A stretch of DNA of 47,019 nucleotides, from the NCBI GenBank assembly GCA_017881315.1, contig JADGRB010000009.1, forward strand, positions 1 through 47,019, in the 5' to 3' direction. Under the pieces are notes generated by a model. The model made no database searches. It was not told the origin of the DNA and saw only the letters and a list, made by a program, of their open reading frames with translations. A program made the translations under genes and the position numbers. Shown here one piece after another: positions 5,828 to 46,801 of the stretch. The DNA is from Pseudomonadota bacterium (GTDB taxonomy: Bacteria; Myxococcota_A; Polyangia; Fen-1088). Every line of letters begins with the position of its first letter. The stretch's first letter is position 1.

Positions 5828-7359
5828 GGCGCAGCTGGGCCTCGGTGACGGTCGGCCTGCTGGTGGTCATCGTGGGGGCGATCAGCTACTTCCTGATCCG
5901 CTCGACCAGCGAGCACACCTCTGGATCGAAGGGCATCAAGGTCTGGGGACTGTTCCACGACGCCTCGGGCCTGTTCGAGAAGTCGCGCGTGCAGACCGCC
6001 GGCATCTCGGTCGGTGAGATCGATAAGCGCGAGCTGGATCCCGCCACCGCCCGCGCCCGAGTCACCATCAAGATGTTGCCGGGCATCACGATGTACGAAA
6101 ATGCGGTGGTCTCCAAGAAATCGGCCTCCCTGCTGGGCGAGTACTATCTGGAGATCGATCCGGGCACGCCGTTCGCCGAGGTGAAGGGCCAGCCCAAGGC
6201 CATGCGCCAGCTCAAGGACGGGGATCAGATCCTCAACGTGCGCGAGCCCACCGCGCTGGGGGACATCATGGCCGACGTGGGGGCGCTGCTGCCGATCCTG
6301 CACGACATCCTGGACGACGTGCACAGGCTGACCTCCGGCACCGTCACGGACATCGCCGAGAACATCAACAAGCTGATCGAGAGCAACGCGGACACGCTCG
6401 GTCGCCTCCTGACCCGCGTCGACACGATCGCCGCCAACGTGGAAGGGGTGACCAGCACCGAGGCGGGCGACGTCAAGGAATCGATCAAGAACGTCCGCGA
6501 GATCACCGAGTCGATCAAGTCGCTCATCGGCACCACCCAGGGCCAGGTGGCGGGCACCGGCACCAAGGTCCAGGGATCGATCGATCGCCTGCAGTCGACG
6601 CTCGACAACCTCGACAAGACCATGAAGAACATGGAGACCGTCACCGGCCGCCTCGAGAGGGGCGAGGGGACGGCGGGCAAGCTGCTCACCGACGACGCGA
6701 TCGCCAACAACATCGAGAACATCACCGAGGACGCCAGCGGCTTCGTCCGCGGCATCACCAAGCTCCAGACCGTCGTCGGGCTGCGCACCGAGTACAACTT
6801 CATCTCGAACGGGGTGAAGAACTACCTCTCGGTCCAGCTCATACCCCGCCCAGACAAGTTCTATCTGATCGAGCTCATCGAGGACCCGCGCGGCTACTCG
6901 AGCACCGCCCGCACCGTCACCAACAGCTCGTTGACGGGCAGCAGCTCGGCGACCACGGTGACGACCACCAATCAGCTTCGGTTCTCGCTCATGCTGGGCA
7001 AGCGCATTGGTCCGGCGGCCTTCCGCTTCGGCATCAAAGAGTCGACCGGAGGCTTCGGGGGCGATCTCTACATGCTCGACGATCGACTCAGCCTCTCCGT
7101 CGACGTCTTCAACTTCGCGGCCTCGAACGTCGGTCAGTACCCCCGCGTGAAGGGCACCCTGTCTTGGGATGTCTTTAGCACCAAGACGTTCTATGTGGTC
7201 GCCGGCGCCGACGATCTCTTGAACTACACGCGCCCGAAGGCCGGCGCCGGCGGCGGCTTCGACTATTTCCTCGGGGCCCAGCTCAGCTTCAACGACCAGG
7301 ACCTCAAGTCCTTGCTCCTCTTCGGCGGCGGCGCCGCCGCGGGCAGCGCGAGCAAATGA
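5824..7359 (+). CDS. mlaD: MCE/MlaD family protein with long C-terminal beta-rich domain
   Basis: N-terminal TM, MCE domain (VWGLFHDASGLFEKSRVQTAGISVGEI... LLGEYYLEIDPG), helical segment, then a beta-barrel-like region. Confidence 0.9.
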   Translation: MRRSWASVTVGLLVVIVGAISYFLIRSTSEHTSGSKGIKVWGLFHDASGLFEKSRVQTAGISVGEIDKRELDPATARARVTIKMLPGITMYENAVVSKKSASLLGEYYLEIDPGTPFAEVKGQPKAMRQLKDGDQILNVREPTALGDIMADVGALLPILHDILDDVHRLTSGTVTDIAENINKLIESNADTLGRLLTRVDTIAANVEGVTSTEAGDVKESIKNVREITESIKSLIGTTQGQVAGTGTKVQGSIDRLQSTLDNLDKTMKNMETVTGRLERGEGTAGKLLTDDAIANNIENITEDASGFVRGITKLQTVVGLRTEYNFISNGVKNYLSVQLIPRPDKFYLIELIEDPRGYSSTARTVTNSSLTGSSSATTVTTTNQLRFSLMLGKRIGPAAFRFGIKESTGGFGGDLYMLDDRLSLSVDVFNFAASNVGQYPRVKGTLSWDVFSTKTFYVVAGADDLLNYTRPKAGAGGGFDYFLGAQLSFNDQDLKSLLLFGGGAAAGSASK

Positions 7360-7432
7360 GATGGGAGCCCGACGGGAACCTGGGATCGGGGCGGGCTCTG
7401 CCTGGGTCGAAACGCCCGGTTTGGCGCTACGC

Positions 7433-7460
7433 TTGACTCCGGGGGCGTGCCTCCTATAGT
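7433..7460 (+). promoter_or_regulatory. Sigma-70 type promoter TTGACT-N16-TATAGT for the yceD-rpmF-plsX-fab operon
   Basis: Near-consensus -35 and -10 boxes, 16-nt spacer, in the gap before the operon. Confidence 0.7.
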
Positions 7461-7501
7461 AACTCACCCTCCGCCACCCGGTCGGTGGCGTTTCGTCAAC
7501 A

Positions 7502-8026
7502 ATGCGCTTTAAGATCAATGAGATCGGCACCGAGGGGCTGCCGGTGAACGTGACCGTGACGGCCGATTGGGTGGCCGCCGCTTGTCCCGATCTCGAGGCG
7601 CGTCCTGGTCCGTCCGGACTGACGCTGCGGGGCCGGCTCGACAAGACCGGCGACGACTACCTGCTGCGGGCCGAGCTGCGTGGCCCGATGGAGACGACCT
7701 GTGCGCGCTGTCTGGAGCCGGCGCGCCTGGCGCTCCAGCTGCCGCTCGCCGTGACGTTCGTCTCCGCCGATGCCGACGACGCGGATGACGACGAAGACCC
7801 GGATCTGGTGACCTTTCAGGGCGGAGAGATCGACGTCGGAGACGAAGTCCGCGACGAGATTCTGCTCGCGATTCCCATCAATCCGCTCTGCAAGACGGAT
7901 TGCCTGGGTCTGTGCGGCGTGTGCGGAGGCAATCGCAACCTCGTCGCCTGCGGTTGCCGGACCGAGACCGCGCCCTCCGTGCGTCTCGCGGCGCTCGCCA
8001 AGATCAAGCTGCCAACCCAACACTAG
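7502..8026 (+). CDS. yceD: DUF177/YceD family protein
   Basis: CARCLEPARLAL and CKTDCLGLCGVCGGN motifs; immediately upstream of rpmF. Confidence 0.88.
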   Translation: MRFKINEIGTEGLPVNVTVTADWVAAACPDLEARPGPSGLTLRGRLDKTGDDYLLRAELRGPMETTCARCLEPARLALQLPLAVTFVSADADDADDDEDPDLVTFQGGEIDVGDEVRDEILLAIPINPLCKTDCLGLCGVCGGNRNLVACGCRTETAPSVRLAALAKIKLPTQH

Positions 8027-40975: not shown

Positions 40976-42691
40976 ATGGCGCGCATCCTCCTCGTCGACG
41001 ACCAGCCCGGTGGGGCACGCGCCGCCATCGAGAAGGTGGCCCGCGCGGCCAAGGCCGGCGAGATCGAACGGGTGGAGTCGGCCCCGGCGGCGCTGGCGCG
41101 GCTCGACGCGCAGCCCTACGATTTTGTGCTCCTGCCGCCCGAAGGGCTGCGGACGGCGCTCACCGGCGGATTGCGCAGCGGCGTCGACGTCCTGCGCGAG
41201 ACCTTCGACGTGTTCGAGGACGGGGTGTGTCTGGTGGCCCCCGACGGCACGCTCGAGGTCGCGAACGCGATGGGCACGCGGCTCTACGACGGCGGGCTGC
41301 GCCCCGATCTGCAGGCCGCGGCGCGCGACGCGATCACCCGCGGCGTCACGGCGGATCGCAGCCTCTCCGGAGGCGGGCGGGCCTTCGCGGTGCGCGCCTA
41401 CCCGCTGCCCGGGCGGGGCGCGGTGCTCTACGTGCGCGACGCGACCGACGAGCGGGAGCGCGAGATCGGACGTCTCCAGGCCGAAAAGCTGGCGTCGATC
41501 GGCTTGCTCGCCGCGGGCGTCGCGCACGAGATCAACAACCCGGCGGCCTTCGTGCTGGCCAACCTCGAGGCGCTGGCGGGTCACATGCGGCTCATCGAAG
41601 AAAAACTGCGCGACCTGCCCGACGGGGGGGCGACGCGCCTCGCGCTTGCCGATCAGCTCTTCGAGGCCAACGCGATCTTGCAGGAGTCGAAGGAGGGGAT
41701 GGCGCGGATCCACCGGATCGTGCGCGATCTGGCCGCGTTCTCGCACACCGACGAGGACACCAGCGTTCCAATCGACGTGAACGCCGCGGTCGAATCGGCG
41801 CTCAGCATGCTGCGCACCGAGCTCAGGTACCGCGCGCAGGTCGAGCGCGACTTCTCGGCCACCCGGATGGTGCGCGCCAGCGCCGCGCGCCTCGGCCAGG
41901 TGTTTCTGAACCTGATCTTGAACGCCGCCCAGGCCCTCGACGAGGCGGACGCGCGGCGCAATCGGGTGCGCGTGCGGACCTTCGACGACGGCGCCAGCGT
42001 GGTCGTCGAGATCTCCGACAACGGCCCGGGGATCCAGGCGGAGATCCTCCCCCGCATCTTCGAGTCTTTCTTCACCACCAAGCCGCGCGGGATGGGGACC
42101 GGGCTGGGGCTGCCGATCTCGCTGGGTATCGTGCGGGGGCTGGGCGGCGAGATCGTGGTCGAGAGCCGCAACGGGGAAGGGGCGACGTTCCGGGTCCGCC
42201 TGCCGGCCGACGAGACGATCGCGCCGGTCGTGAGCGCCCCCGCGCCCGTGACGATCCGCGCGCGCGGCTATCAGCGACGCCGCATCCTGGCCGTCGACGA
42301 CGAGCCACTGCTCCTCAAGGCCTACCGGCGAATGCTCGGCGACGCGCACGAGCTGGCGACCGCGCTGGGCGGGCACGAGGCGCTGCGCATCCTCGAGCGT
42401 GACGCCGCGTTCGACGTCATCCTGTGCGACCTGCAGATGCCCGAGATGTCCGGCGTGGACCTGTACGCGACCGTGCGTGAACGCTTCCCCGCGCTGGGTG
42501 AACGGTTCGTGTTCGTGACCGGCGGCGCCTTCTCCAGCGACGCGCGGCGCTTCCTGGAGGAGACGGTGGCGGCCGTGATCCAGAAACCGTTCCGGCTCGA
42601 GGATCTGCTGGCGCTCATCGAGCGCGCCGCCCGGGGATCGGAACCCGTCCCCCCGACCTCCTCGAAGTCGCCCGCGTCGCGCCTGAGCTGA
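40976..42691 (+). CDS. Hybrid sensor histidine kinase (degenerate REC / PAS-like / HisKA-HATPase / REC)
   Basis: GVAHEINNPAAF H-box, NLILNAAQAL N-box, GTGLGLPIS G-box, C-terminal ILAVDDEP...VILCDLQMPEMSG. Confidence 0.92.
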   Translation: MARILLVDDQPGGARAAIEKVARAAKAGEIERVESAPAALARLDAQPYDFVLLPPEGLRTALTGGLRSGVDVLRETFDVFEDGVCLVAPDGTLEVANAMGTRLYDGGLRPDLQAAARDAITRGVTADRSLSGGGRAFAVRAYPLPGRGAVLYVRDATDEREREIGRLQAEKLASIGLLAAGVAHEINNPAAFVLANLEALAGHMRLIEEKLRDLPDGGATRLALADQLFEANAILQESKEGMARIHRIVRDLAAFSHTDEDTSVPIDVNAAVESALSMLRTELRYRAQVERDFSATRMVRASAARLGQVFLNLILNAAQALDEADARRNRVRVRTFDDGASVVVEISDNGPGIQAEILPRIFESFFTTKPRGMGTGLGLPISLGIVRGLGGEIVVESRNGEGATFRVRLPADETIAPVVSAPAPVTIRARGYQRRRILAVDDEPLLLKAYRRMLGDAHELATALGGHEALRILERDAAFDVILCDLQMPEMSGVDLYATVRERFPALGERFVFVTGGAFSSDARRFLEETVAAVIQKPFRLEDLLALIERAARGSEPVPPTSSKSPASRLS

Positions 42692-42711
42692 GACGCGTGG
42701 GCGGAGGATCC

Positions 42712-43113
42712 ATGCGCCCCCGCAAGTTGGTGGTGGCCGCCCTGGTGCGGCGGGACACGCGGATCCTGATGTCGCGACGTCGCGCCGATCAGCCGATGCC
42801 CAACCTGTGGGAGTTTCCCGGCGGCAAGGTCGAGCCCGGCGAAGCGCCGGTCGCCGCGCTCGCGCGCGAGGTGCGTGAGGAGCTCGGCTGCGACATCGAG
42901 GTGGGCGGCATCCACGACGTGGTCTTCCACGCGTACCCCGAATTCGATCTGGTCATGCTGGTTTACTCGGCGACCATCGTCCGGGGCACGCCGCGCGCCC
43001 TGGAGGTCGCCGAGGTGGCCTGGATCGAAGCGACGCACGTTCCGTCGCTCGATCTCCTCCCCGCCGACACCCCGCTGGCGCTGGCCCTGGCGGGCACCCA
43101 AGCGGGCGACTAG
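42712..43113 (+). CDS. NUDIX (MutT-like) hydrolase (GTG at 42697 also possible)
   Basis: Nudix box GGKVEPGEAPVAALAREVREELG. Confidence 0.92.
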   Translation: MRPRKLVVAALVRRDTRILMSRRRADQPMPNLWEFPGGKVEPGEAPVAALAREVREELGCDIEVGGIHDVVFHAYPEFDLVMLVYSATIVRGTPRALEVAEVAWIEATHVPSLDLLPADTPLALALAGTQAGD

Positions 43114-44672
43114 CTCGCGTCGGCGGTGGGCGCGTCGGGCGTTGGCCCGTCCGCCGTCGGCTCGGTCGGCGCCTGCGCGTCTGCCGCGGGCTCGGTCGGC
43201 GCCGATGCCGCCGGCGTCGCGATCACGCCGGGGTGGCGGAGCGCCTCGCGTTCGATGGCGCGGGCGGCTTCGGTCGCGTCGCGCTTGCACGCGCCGCACA
43301 TGCCGGGCGCGGCCCAGGCGCCGAGGTGGGTCTGAAGCTGGCTCTCGGGCGGCCAGTAGATCGGCGTCCCGCAGGTCTTGCAGGGGATCTCGATGGTCTT
43401 CTTGTCTTTGAGGAAGTCGCTGCAGACCTGACAACGCCGCTCGGGCGGCCGGATCTCGCGCCGGCGCTTCTTCTTCCCTTTCTTGCCGACGTTGCCCACA
43501 TTGCCCACGCGGACGACCTGGCCAGGGACGCTGCCCGGCGCGGCGCCGCCCGCGGCCAGCGCCTCGGCACCGGCCGCAGGCTCGCCCGCGGCGACGACGA
43601 CGACCGGCGCCTCTCCTTCATCTTCGCCCTTGTGGGTGGGACGAACGCCCGCCGCGAGCTGCGCCGCCTTCGCCCAGGTCCAGGTTCCGTCGCAGTTCTC
43701 CGTCTTGCACGGGAGCTGCCGGTCCTCGAGATCGCCGATCTCCTTGGCGCAGTTTTCACAGTACTGCGGATAGGGATCGCCGGTCTTGCCGCGCACCGCG
43801 CGCGCGAGCTGACCGCCCCGCTTGTCGAGCCAGGTCCCCTTGCAGCCGCTGCGCCGGCAGGGCCGCTCCACGTCTTTGAGCGCCTGGTAAATCGAGATGC
43901 AGCTGTCGCACATCCGGTGCGGCGCCTTGGGCGTCGGCTTGCCGGCCAGGCAGGCGTCGAGCTGATCGCTCCGCGTCCAGGTCCAGGTCTTCTTGCAGCC
44001 CGAGGTCCGGCAGCGCACCGGGCGATCGGCGATCGCGCCGAAGGCCGCGTCGCAGGTCTTGCACATCCGCCGCGGCGGCTCGTTGGGCAGCCCCTGCGCA
44101 TAGGCCTGGATCTGCTCGTCGGCCGACCAGGACCATTTCTCCTTGCAGCCGTTGATGCCGCAGTTGGTGTTCCGATCCTTGAGCTTGCGATAGACGCCTT
44201 CGCACTGGTCGCAGCGCAGCGTCGGATCGCCGAGCTCGGTGTCGGGCGCGCCAGCGACCAGCTGGGCCTGCCGGGTGAAGACCGCCGACCGCACGCAGCC
44301 CGGCACCGCGCAGGGCAGCGGCCGATCGGAGAGCGCGCTCAGCTTCTCCTCGCAGCCATCGCACAGCCGGTGCGGCGGCTTGCGGTTGTTGGCCGCGGCA
44401 ACCACCTGGTCGGAGGCCTTCCAGGTCCACTTGCCCTCGCAGCCCGGTCGATCGCAAGGCCGCAGGGCGTCGGTCGCCTTCGCGAAGACCTGCCGGCAGG
44501 GATCGCACATCGAAGATGCGGGATCGGACGGATCGGCGGCGCCGCGCCCGCCCAGCTTGTTCCCCACCTTGGCGCTGGCCATCGAGATCCAGGTGCGGAC
44601 GCAGCCGGGCACGGAGCAGGGCGAGGACTTCGCCCCCAGTCGATCCGCAAGTGTGAAACCGCCGAGACCCAT
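43110..44672 (-). CDS. Tandem four-cysteine module protein (about eight putative zinc-binding modules)
   Basis: Seven C-x4-C...C-x2-C units and one C-x2-C...C-x2-C unit with recurring W-x-W and DQ; acidic/Pro-rich C-terminus. ATG at 44672 (track uses GTG at 44675). Confidence 0.85.
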   Translation of the reverse strand: MGLGGFTLADRLGAKSSPCSVPGCVRTWISMASAKVGNKLGGRGAADPSDPASSMCDPCRQVFAKATDALRPCDRPGCEGKWTWKASDQVVAAANNRKPPHRLCDGCEEKLSALSDRPLPCAVPGCVRSAVFTRQAQLVAGAPDTELGDPTLRCDQCEGVYRKLKDRNTNCGINGCKEKWSWSADEQIQAYAQGLPNEPPRRMCKTCDAAFGAIADRPVRCRTSGCKKTWTWTRSDQLDACLAGKPTPKAPHRMCDSCISIYQALKDVERPCRRSGCKGTWLDKRGGQLARAVRGKTGDPYPQYCENCAKEIGDLEDRQLPCKTENCDGTWTWAKAAQLAAGVRPTHKGEDEGEAPVVVVAAGEPAAGAEALAAGGAAPGSVPGQVVRVGNVGNVGKKGKKKRRREIRPPERRCQVCSDFLKDKKTIEIPCKTCGTPIYWPPESQLQTHLGAWAAPGMCGACKRDATEAARAIEREALRHPGVIATPAASAPTEPAADAQAPTEPTADGPTPDAPTADAS

Positions 44673-44736
44673 CACGAAAGCCCACTATGCTGACGAAAGG
44701 GCAGCCGCGGCGCAAGGCGAATTGCGCGGGGGTGGC

Positions 44737-44780: not shown

Positions 44781-46169
44781 ATGCAGATCACGATCGAAGA
44801 CCTCTCCCCCGTCGAGAAACGCGTCGAGTTCGAGCTTCCTTGGTCCGACGTCGCTCCCAAGCTCGACAAGGCTTACGATGCCCTGCGGCGTGGCGTGCGC
44901 CTCCCCGGATTCCGGCCCGGCAAGGTGCCGCGGGCCCTCCTGGAGCGGATGTACCGCCGCCAGGTCGAGGACGACGTGGCCCGGGAGCTGGTCGAGCACT
45001 CGCTGGGGCAGGCGATCCAGGAGAACCAGATCCAGCCGGTGGCGCCACCCGCGGTGGCCGAGATCGAGATCAAGACCGGCGAGCCGTTCAAGTTCTCGGC
45101 CCGGGTCGAGGTCCGCTCGCAGGTCACGCCGCAAGACTACGCCGGGATCCCGGTGTCGCGCCGGCCGCCCAAGGTGACGGACGAGCAGGTCGCCGAGGCG
45201 CTCGAGGGTTATCGGCGCCGACTCACGCAGTTCAAGGCGGTCGAAGGGCGCAAGGTGACGGCCGAGACGGATCTGTTGCAGGTCGAGCTGTCGGGGCGCG
45301 TGGGCGAGCACAAGATCAAGCGGCGCGAGGTGCTGGTCGATCTGGAGGACGACACCAGCGGCCCGTTGCCAGGCCTGGCGGGACGGCTCCGGGGCAAGCC
45401 GATCGGCGGCGACCACATCGAGGTCGACTACACGCTACCGGCCGAGGGGCCGGCCCCCGAGCTGGCGGGGCGCCACGTGCACCTGCACGTCACCATCAAA
45501 GAAGCCCGGCAAAAACAGGTCCCCGCGCTCGACGACGAGCTGGCCAAGGACACCGGCGAGGCCGAGACGCTGGACGGCCTGCGCGCCAAGGTCCGCGAGA
45601 AGCTGATCGAGGCCGACCAGCAGCGGATCAAGCGGGAGGTCTCCCAGGCGCTGGTCAAGGAGATCATCAAGCGCAACGTGTTCCCGGTCGCGCCCGCGCT
45701 CATCGATCGCTACGCGCAGGCGATCGTCAAGCGCGCCAAGAACCAGCTCATGATGATGGGCGTCGACGTCGAGGGGGTCGACGACCAGACGATGCGCGGC
45801 GAGATGCAGGTCGAGGCCGAAGAGGAGGCGCGGGGGGCGATCCTCTTGCAGGCCATCGCCGAGCGCGAGGGGATCACCGCCGGTGACGCCGACCTCCAGA
45901 AGCGGATCGCCGAGCTGGCGGCCGCGCGCAACGAGAACCCCAAGCAGCTCCGCGCCGAGCTGGAGAAGGACCACCGGATCCACCAGATCGAGGCGCAGAT
46001 CCGGGAGCAGAAGACGCTTGATATGCTGATCTCGCAGGCTAAGATCACCGACGGCGAGCCGGTGTCCTCGTTGATCGTCACGCCCGAAGAGGCGCGGCGG
46101 GAGGCACAGGCGGCGCAAAAAACCGGCCCGAAGCCCGGCCCGAAGAAGAAAAAGGACCCCACCCCATGA
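44781..46169 (+). CDS. tig: Trigger factor
   Basis: [27 protein letters not shown]-terminal domain; followed by clpP and clpX. Confidence 0.95.
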
Positions 46170-46801
46170 GCGAGTTCGACGCACCTCCCCCCGCGATCCG
46201 GAACTTCATCATTCCGACGGTCATCGAGCAGACCCACCGGGGCGAGCGCGGCTGGGACATCTTCTCGCGCCTGCTCAAGGACCGGATCATCTTTCTCGGC
46301 ACGGCGGTCGACGATCAGGTCGCGAACATCGTCATCGCGCAGCTGCTCTTTCTCGAGAGCGAAGATCCCGACAAGGACATCATGCTCTACATCAACTCCC
46401 CGGGCGGGATGGTGACGGCCGGGATGGCCATCTACGACACCATGCAGTACGTGCGGCCCGACGTGGCGACGTTCTGCATGGGGCAGGCGGCCTCGATGGG
46501 CGCGTTCCTGCTGGCGGCCGGCGCCAAGGGCAAGCGGTTCTCGCTGCCGCACGCCCGGATCCTGATTCACCAGCCGCTGGGTGGGTTCTCGGGGCAGGCG
46601 ACCGACATCGACATCCACGCCAAGGAGATCCTGCGGACCCGCGACAAGCTCAACGAGCTCCTGGTCAAGCACACCGGCCAGCCCATGGAGCGGATCAAGT
46701 CCGACACCGAGCGCGACTACTTCATGAGCGCCATCGAGGGCAAGGAGTACGGCCTCATCGACGAGGTGCTCATCCAGAAGCCGACCGGACCGGTGAAGTA
46801 G
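46166..46801 (+). CDS. clpP: ATP-dependent Clp protease proteolytic subunit
   Basis: [52 protein letters not shown]. Confidence 0.98.

Follow-up and report, generated by a model that had tools for sequence, protein, structure and literature searches.

Extended arrays in which metal-stabilised fingers follow one another are generally regarded as a eukaryotic feature. The C2H2 arrays of TFIIIA and CTCF carry many metal modules per chain at regular spacing, and treble clefs stand in tandem within one chain in LIM domains and nuclear receptors (PMC4999995). In the canonical treble clef, the knuckle and the helix are separated by a primary beta-hairpin (PMC4999995). The zf_Tbcl domain (PF13451, "Probable treble clef domain") combines two Cys pairs with an aromatic residue past the first knuckle, a conserved Gln and a Pro/Arg approach to the second knuckle. 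A literature search for PF13451 or tandem zf_Tbcl arrays returned nothing. The window, i.e. the whole stretch of 47,019 nucleotides that was analyzed, encodes a protein that resembles zf_Tbcl in all these respects, but the zf_Tbcl proteins examined had one domain each, whereas this protein has eight in tandem, seven of them with a C-x4-C first knuckle. It shares with TFIIIA and CTCF the number and regular spacing of its modules; those proteins differ in being eukaryotic and in their C2H2 fold and ligands, and the structural comparison with Foldseek gave an E value of 0.17 and a probability below 0.1. The LIM and nuclear-receptor arrays comprise two units as opposed to eight, and no sequence match to them was found.

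The gene is located on the minus strand at 43110..44672 (ATG at 44672, stop included) and encodes 520 amino acids. Start and frame were kept in relatives, and those belonging to the window's family have the same start Met. A plus-strand ORF at 43233-44693 overlaps the gene; as the conserved frame is that of the GC-rich gene on the minus strand, this ORF was regarded as its shadow. No paralogue of the array gene was present in the window's own genome. Upon inspection of the sequence no N-terminal signal peptide was evident, and the protein is presumably cytoplasmic. As a whole, the protein carries a modest net charge (from +5 to +21 among the aligned relatives), and the modules of the window protein are near neutral apart from modules 5 and 7.

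Cysteine makes up 33 of the 520 residues, and all but one of them (32/33) sit in register as eight quartets. The knuckles that the first-pass annotation had read from the DNA were all recovered, both the first ones (PCSVPGC, PCDRPGC, PCAVPGC, NCGINGC, RCRTSGC, PCRRSGC, PCKTENC, and PCKTCG; 8/8) and the second ones (CDPC, CDGC, CDQC, CKTC, CDSC, CENC, CQVC, and CGAC; 8/8). Modules 1-7 follow the pattern C-x4-C...C-x2-C and module 8 the pattern C-x2-C...C-x2-C. Successive first knuckles are 54, 48, 50, 50, 51, 50, and 109 residues apart. All modules are encoded on the minus strand. Module 1 (residues 15-68, 44469..44630) is of the C-x4-C type with C19, C24, C56, and C59; in the window's family it has neither W-x-W nor the DQL position. 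Then come module 2 (residues 69-116, 44325..44468; C73, C78, C104, and C107), module 3 (residues 117-166, 44175..44324; C121, C126, C154, and C157), which in the window protein has lost the aromatic pair, module 4 (residues 167-216, 44025..44174; C171, C176, C204, and C207), module 5 (residues 217-267, 43872..44024; C221, C226, C255, and C258), the one that was modelled singly, and module 6 (residues 268-317, 43722..43871; C272, C277, C305, and C308). Module 7 (residues 318-426, 43395..43721; C322, C327, C414, and C417) is interrupted by an insertion (residues 345-409, 43446..43640, minus strand) that is predicted to be mostly disordered, with pLDDT below 50 at residues 358-398. The final 16 residues of this insertion form a Lys/Arg patch, NVGKKGKKKRRREIRP (43446-43493, minus strand). 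Module 8 (residues 427-475, 43248..43394; C431, C434, C459, and C462) is the zf_Tbcl-related unit with a C-x2-C first knuckle, and is followed by a low-complexity Pro/Ala/Thr tail (residues 476-520, 43113..43247, minus strand) with AlphaFold2 pLDDT mostly below 50.

Other features ascribed to the modules needed correction. A W-x-W segment had been assigned to each of them; it is strict in modules 2, 4, 5, and 7, and modules 1, 3, 6, and 8 read TWIS, SAVF, TWLD, and PIYW, respectively. The DQ/QL position, also thought to be general, is missing from module 1. The long Ala/Gly- and Lys/Arg-containing linker had been placed between modules 7 and 8. It lies inside module 7 instead, between PCKTENC and CQVC, and modules 7 and 8 directly adjoin with no linker between them. 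Beyond the cysteines, many other residues of the modules are conserved, among them Trp, Gln, Gly, and Pro-Pro-Arg.

The suspected resemblance of the last unit to zf-trcl (now PF13451, zf_Tbcl) was borne out. Compared with zf_Tbcl sequences (seven in alignment A4), module 8 gave an hhalign E value of 1.3e-8 at a probability of 95.5%, and 8 of 10 module-8 sequences matched PF13451 with E values no higher than 1, the lowest being 4.4e-6. For modules 1-7 the comparison with zf_Tbcl yielded E 7e-5, an E value for a single comparison, and a probability of 63%; with their C-x4-C first knuckles, 2 of 16 such modules matched PF13451 at E up to 1. Modules 1-7 and module 8 matched each other with E 1.2e-5 (probability 81%). 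A plain hmmscan of the window protein did not list PF13451, its best score being 12.8 bits at module 4, under the cut-off of 24. Two homologues exceed this cut-off (L026, 47.1 bits; L029, 24.4 bits), and most of those tested fall short of it. By profile comparison, module 8 was thus shown to be related to zf_Tbcl, and modules 1-7 are, as judged from their sequences, probably more distant variants with a first knuckle two residues longer. Two further loci contain frames (226 amino acids in L093, 346 in L095) with a single zf_Tbcl, a low-complexity stretch and a second CxxC...CxxC unit; the stretch in L093 consists of repeated YRSPGFKEYEGI-like units.

Searches of the window protein against Pfam, NCBIfam, PHROGs, and PADLOC returned nothing useful, and none of these collections has a family that describes the array, in line with the earlier view that a tandem x4-knuckle array is unusual; a per-module match to a characterised tandem family was not found either. 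Matches to OSTMP1 and CHORD in the window protein were far under cut-off and were judged to be chance. Several relatives matched FYVE (best E 2.5e-6), and one of them just reached the cut-off of 27.8 bits; these matches were set aside, the aligned stretches crossing module borders. The PDB sequence matches to REF6, ZNF410, YY1, and RPB12 reflected weak likeness in Cys pattern only. What is new in the protein is its architecture and the knuckle variant; the underlying zinc domain is of a known kind.

AlphaFold2 prediction on alignment A3 gave pLDDT values of mostly 85-95 for the modules, below 50 for the insertion, and a pTM of 0.46, so that the mutual orientation of the modules is unsure. Each predicted module consists of a strand, a knuckle, a strand and a helix, followed by a helix that starts with the second Cys pair. 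Prediction of module 5 alone agreed (pLDDT 80). The ligand layout of a treble clef was seen in the prediction, the first Cys pair lying at the turn of a hairpin and the second at the start of a helix. The primary beta-hairpin was absent from the module as predicted by AlphaFold2 both within the whole protein and alone; a helix takes its place. Neither the whole model nor a single module retrieved a PDB entry in Foldseek searches at E up to 0.001, short domains being hard for this program. The modules are described here as treble-clef-like domains of predicted fold.

Conservation of the array was evident from the 21-sequence alignment A3. Even with relatives at 31-38% identity included, 31 of the 32 Cys columns proposed in the first-pass annotation were invariant, the exception being C107, which is Asp in L043/L044; the relatives conserve the quartets. 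Comparison with L041, the nearest relative (87% identity), gave dN/dS values of 0.13 for the modules and 0.35 for linker and tails, and comparison with L042 gave 0.27 and 0.43. All are NG86 estimates only, as YN00 gave very high dS for L041. These data show purifying selection on the module part of the gene. The invariance of 31 of 32 Cys columns and the module dN/dS of about 0.13 show that the Cys quartets are not a product of chance.

Arrays with seven plus one modules in this order also occur, at about 31-38% identity, in a clade of Verrucomicrobiota and in Myxococcota that do not belong to the window's family. When modules 1-7 of the window protein were compared with those of eight distant relatives, 50 of 20,000 random permutations equalled or exceeded the mean same-position score, and the share of best module matches that fell at the same position was 37-65%, against an expectation of one in seven (about 14%). 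This showed that the modules retain positional identity across lineages. Because distant relatives share position-specific modules, the octet either is older than the split of the lineages or was transferred whole. In the tree, the 16 rows of verrucomicrobial type form one side of a single branch with support 100/100; as the tree is unrooted, L127 forms a long branch and some rows include part of an SGNH domain, it does not separate descent from transfer. The pattern suggests an old, conserved binding protein.

Of the 59 genomes searched, which comprised the window's own and those of its relatives, 28 gave a match. Within the window's family (f1) this was the case for 16 of 17 listed relatives, and six other families of the same class (f5, f6, f7, f8, f15, and f19) had matching members. 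Outside f1 the gene is patchy, since 14 of 379 genomes sampled from the phylum were positive. A scan of named genomes by pattern found 26 loci, all in metagenome-assembled genomes, and overlooked distant verrucomicrobial members, so that counts elsewhere are no proof of absence. The labels were Myxococcota, Myxococcales, Polyangia or Deltaproteobacteria, with one each for Proteobacteria, Verrucomicrobia, and Lentisphaeria; in the tree, the locus labelled Proteobacteria groups inside f1. Of 289 genomes from the phylum to which the Lentisphaeria genome belongs, here termed Verrucomicrobiota after its named members, 18 were positive. Viral contigs, phages and plasmids gave no match, and a mobile or viral origin was rejected on this ground. 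Neither PHROGs nor PADLOC placed the protein in a phage or anti-phage defence family.

Four forms of the array could be distinguished. Form A is the compact 7+1 array of about 400 residues from several Myxococcota families. Form B, that of the window's family, adds an insertion of 55-106 residues to module 7, which is compact and uninterrupted in relatives outside this family. In 18 of 18 form B proteins, the window's included, the last 16 residues of the insertion contain 6-11 Lys/Arg, and this patch abuts the second knuckle of module 7. Form C has six modules with a Lys/Arg-rich insertion in module 3 (L028, L031, L064, L065, and L066). The insertion was measured by script in four of the five; L064, read by eye, has the same feature, and L065 is cut at its start. 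Two form C proteins with putative start codons, L031 (1009-3258) and L066 (5668-7626), bear N-terminal RG/RGG tracts and long insertions of Ala/Glu plus Lys/Arg in module 3. In a further protein, L027, module 5 contains a basic insertion.

Form D is verrucomicrobial, with the 7+1 array fused C-terminally to a domain matching SGNH/GDSL hydrolases (PF13472), which is absent from the window protein. The scores were above the cut-off of 32.9 bits for L060 (41.9 bits; domain at 1700-2491) and L063 (39.8 bits; 7255-7995), and SGNH-like domains were also located at the C termini of the array proteins in L116-L129. In the alignment, the block I motif GDS, which holds the catalytic Ser, has become GDE or GDD in 16 of 16 form D proteins, the Ser being replaced by Glu or Asp (L123 reads GDE on alignment). 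For this reason the SGNH domain of form D is probably not a working hydrolase.

The genome neighbourhood differed between lineages. In the window a Nudix gene (42697..43113, plus strand; PF00293, 70.2 bits) is the convergent neighbour and is kept in most of the window's family; its end and that of the array gene at 43110-44672 overlap by 4 bases. Beside it, at 40976-42691, lies a histidine kinase gene with a C-terminal receiver domain; this adjacency is kept in part of the family, in some cases with a second kinase-like gene behind. On the other side, the trigger factor gene tig (44781..46169, plus strand; PF05697, PF05698) is divergent and is followed by clpP (46166-46801; PF00574). The tig-clpP neighbourhood is kept within the window's family only, and a general functional link was rejected on this basis. 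Form D genes have an OmpA-type lipoprotein gene and a MutT-type Nudix gene downstream on the same strand at 10 of the 15 loci with enough downstream sequence (L060, L063, L117-L120, L122-L124, and L128; L116 was excluded, its contig ending there). Other Myxococcota loci had neither the tig-clpP/Nudix nor the verrucomicrobial context. That Nudix genes lie near the array gene in both phyla may be due to chance, and the gene at 42697-43113 is not claimed as a functional partner. MtaB-like radical-SAM genes upstream (L061, L062) and a RecN-like gene downstream (L059) recurred too rarely to be considered. No neighbour conserved across phyla pointed to RNA or DNA metabolism, and no metal transporter or regulator was seen beside the array gene.

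We propose, at a probability of roughly 0.45, that the protein is a cytoplasmic, zinc-stabilised binding array with nucleic acid, foremost RNA, as a likelier partner than protein. Nucleic-acid binding of whatever kind, a sequence reader included, is slightly more probable than not. The four cysteines of each module would bind a single structural metal ion, presumably Zn2+, at the core of its fold. The C-x4-C variant would have been duplicated long ago into modules 1-7, each of which then turned position-specific. The array would present a multivalent surface on which every module offers an aromatic/basic hairpin and a helix, and eight weak contacts would add up to one high-avidity interaction with a long footprint. 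The identity of the metal, its presence once per module, the exposure of these surfaces and the multivalent binding are inferred. Among partners, RNA would come before DNA and both before protein. In the window's family the flexible spacer with its Lys/Arg patch at the second knuckle of module 7 could provide additional electrostatic anchoring, and in the verrucomicrobial relatives the serine-less SGNH domain could supply a second binding site. Nucleic acid is placed ahead of protein because Lys/Arg patches lie beside knuckles in three branches, namely in module 7 of the window's family, module 3 of the six-module form and module 5 of L027. These inserts, not necessarily independent of one another, share a structural place, before a second knuckle, though in different modules. 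The RG/RGG tracts of L031 and L066 likewise give indirect support to nucleic acid.

Several observations count against the proposal as a whole: the modest net charge, the near-neutral modules, the lack of a cross-phylum neighbour from RNA or DNA metabolism and of a significant Foldseek relative, and a primary beta-hairpin that was not predicted. GC-rich genomes often carry Lys/Arg-rich tracts, and basic low-complexity stretches can arise in them without any nucleic-acid partner, which weighs against it too. Treble clefs, moreover, bind proteins and lipids too (PMC4999995). It is possible, if less probable, that the array is a protein-protein scaffold, its modules serving as docking units for one or several proteins and the SGNH domain and spacers as further docking elements. 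Treble-clef domains often mediate protein interactions (PMC4999995; PMC4275035), position-specific modules are expected of distinct docking sites, the loss of GDS in 16 of 16 verrucomicrobial SGNH domains is consistent with a binding role, and the mostly near-neutral modules of the window protein fit as well. A scaffold, however, would not account for the RGG tracts and Lys/Arg patches seen across three branches, and no neighbour conserved across lineages suggests what would dock.

The fixed number, order and positional identity of the modules would also fit register-dependent reading, in which the tandem octet recognises one extended RNA or DNA site in the manner of a sequence-specific multi-finger protein. 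We consider this unlikely: neither a target nor a regulatory context was found, the likeness to CTCF and TFIIIA by Foldseek is not significant, and with a single gene per genome no shared regulon is known. If true, the octet reader would be a bacterial counterpart of TFIIIA/CTCF-type arrays in working principle, not in ancestry, and kept in two phyla. With 32 Cys ligands within one small protein, about eight metal ions per chain could instead be held as a zinc store or buffer, like a folded metallothionein. Positional identity and conserved Trp, Gln, Gly, and Pro-Pro-Arg would be needless for storage, however, and the absence of a metal transporter or regulator next to the gene likewise makes this role improbable.

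A nucleic-acid-binding array remains our preferred interpretation. The lineage-specific additions, i.e. the basic spacer, the RGG tract and the serine-less SGNH domain, offer handles on the partner. The C-x4-C variant broadens the range of the zf_Tbcl-type zinc domain, and a fixed, position-specific octet in bacteria that has no name in Pfam, NCBIfam, PHROGs or PADLOC points to a conserved multivalent binder.
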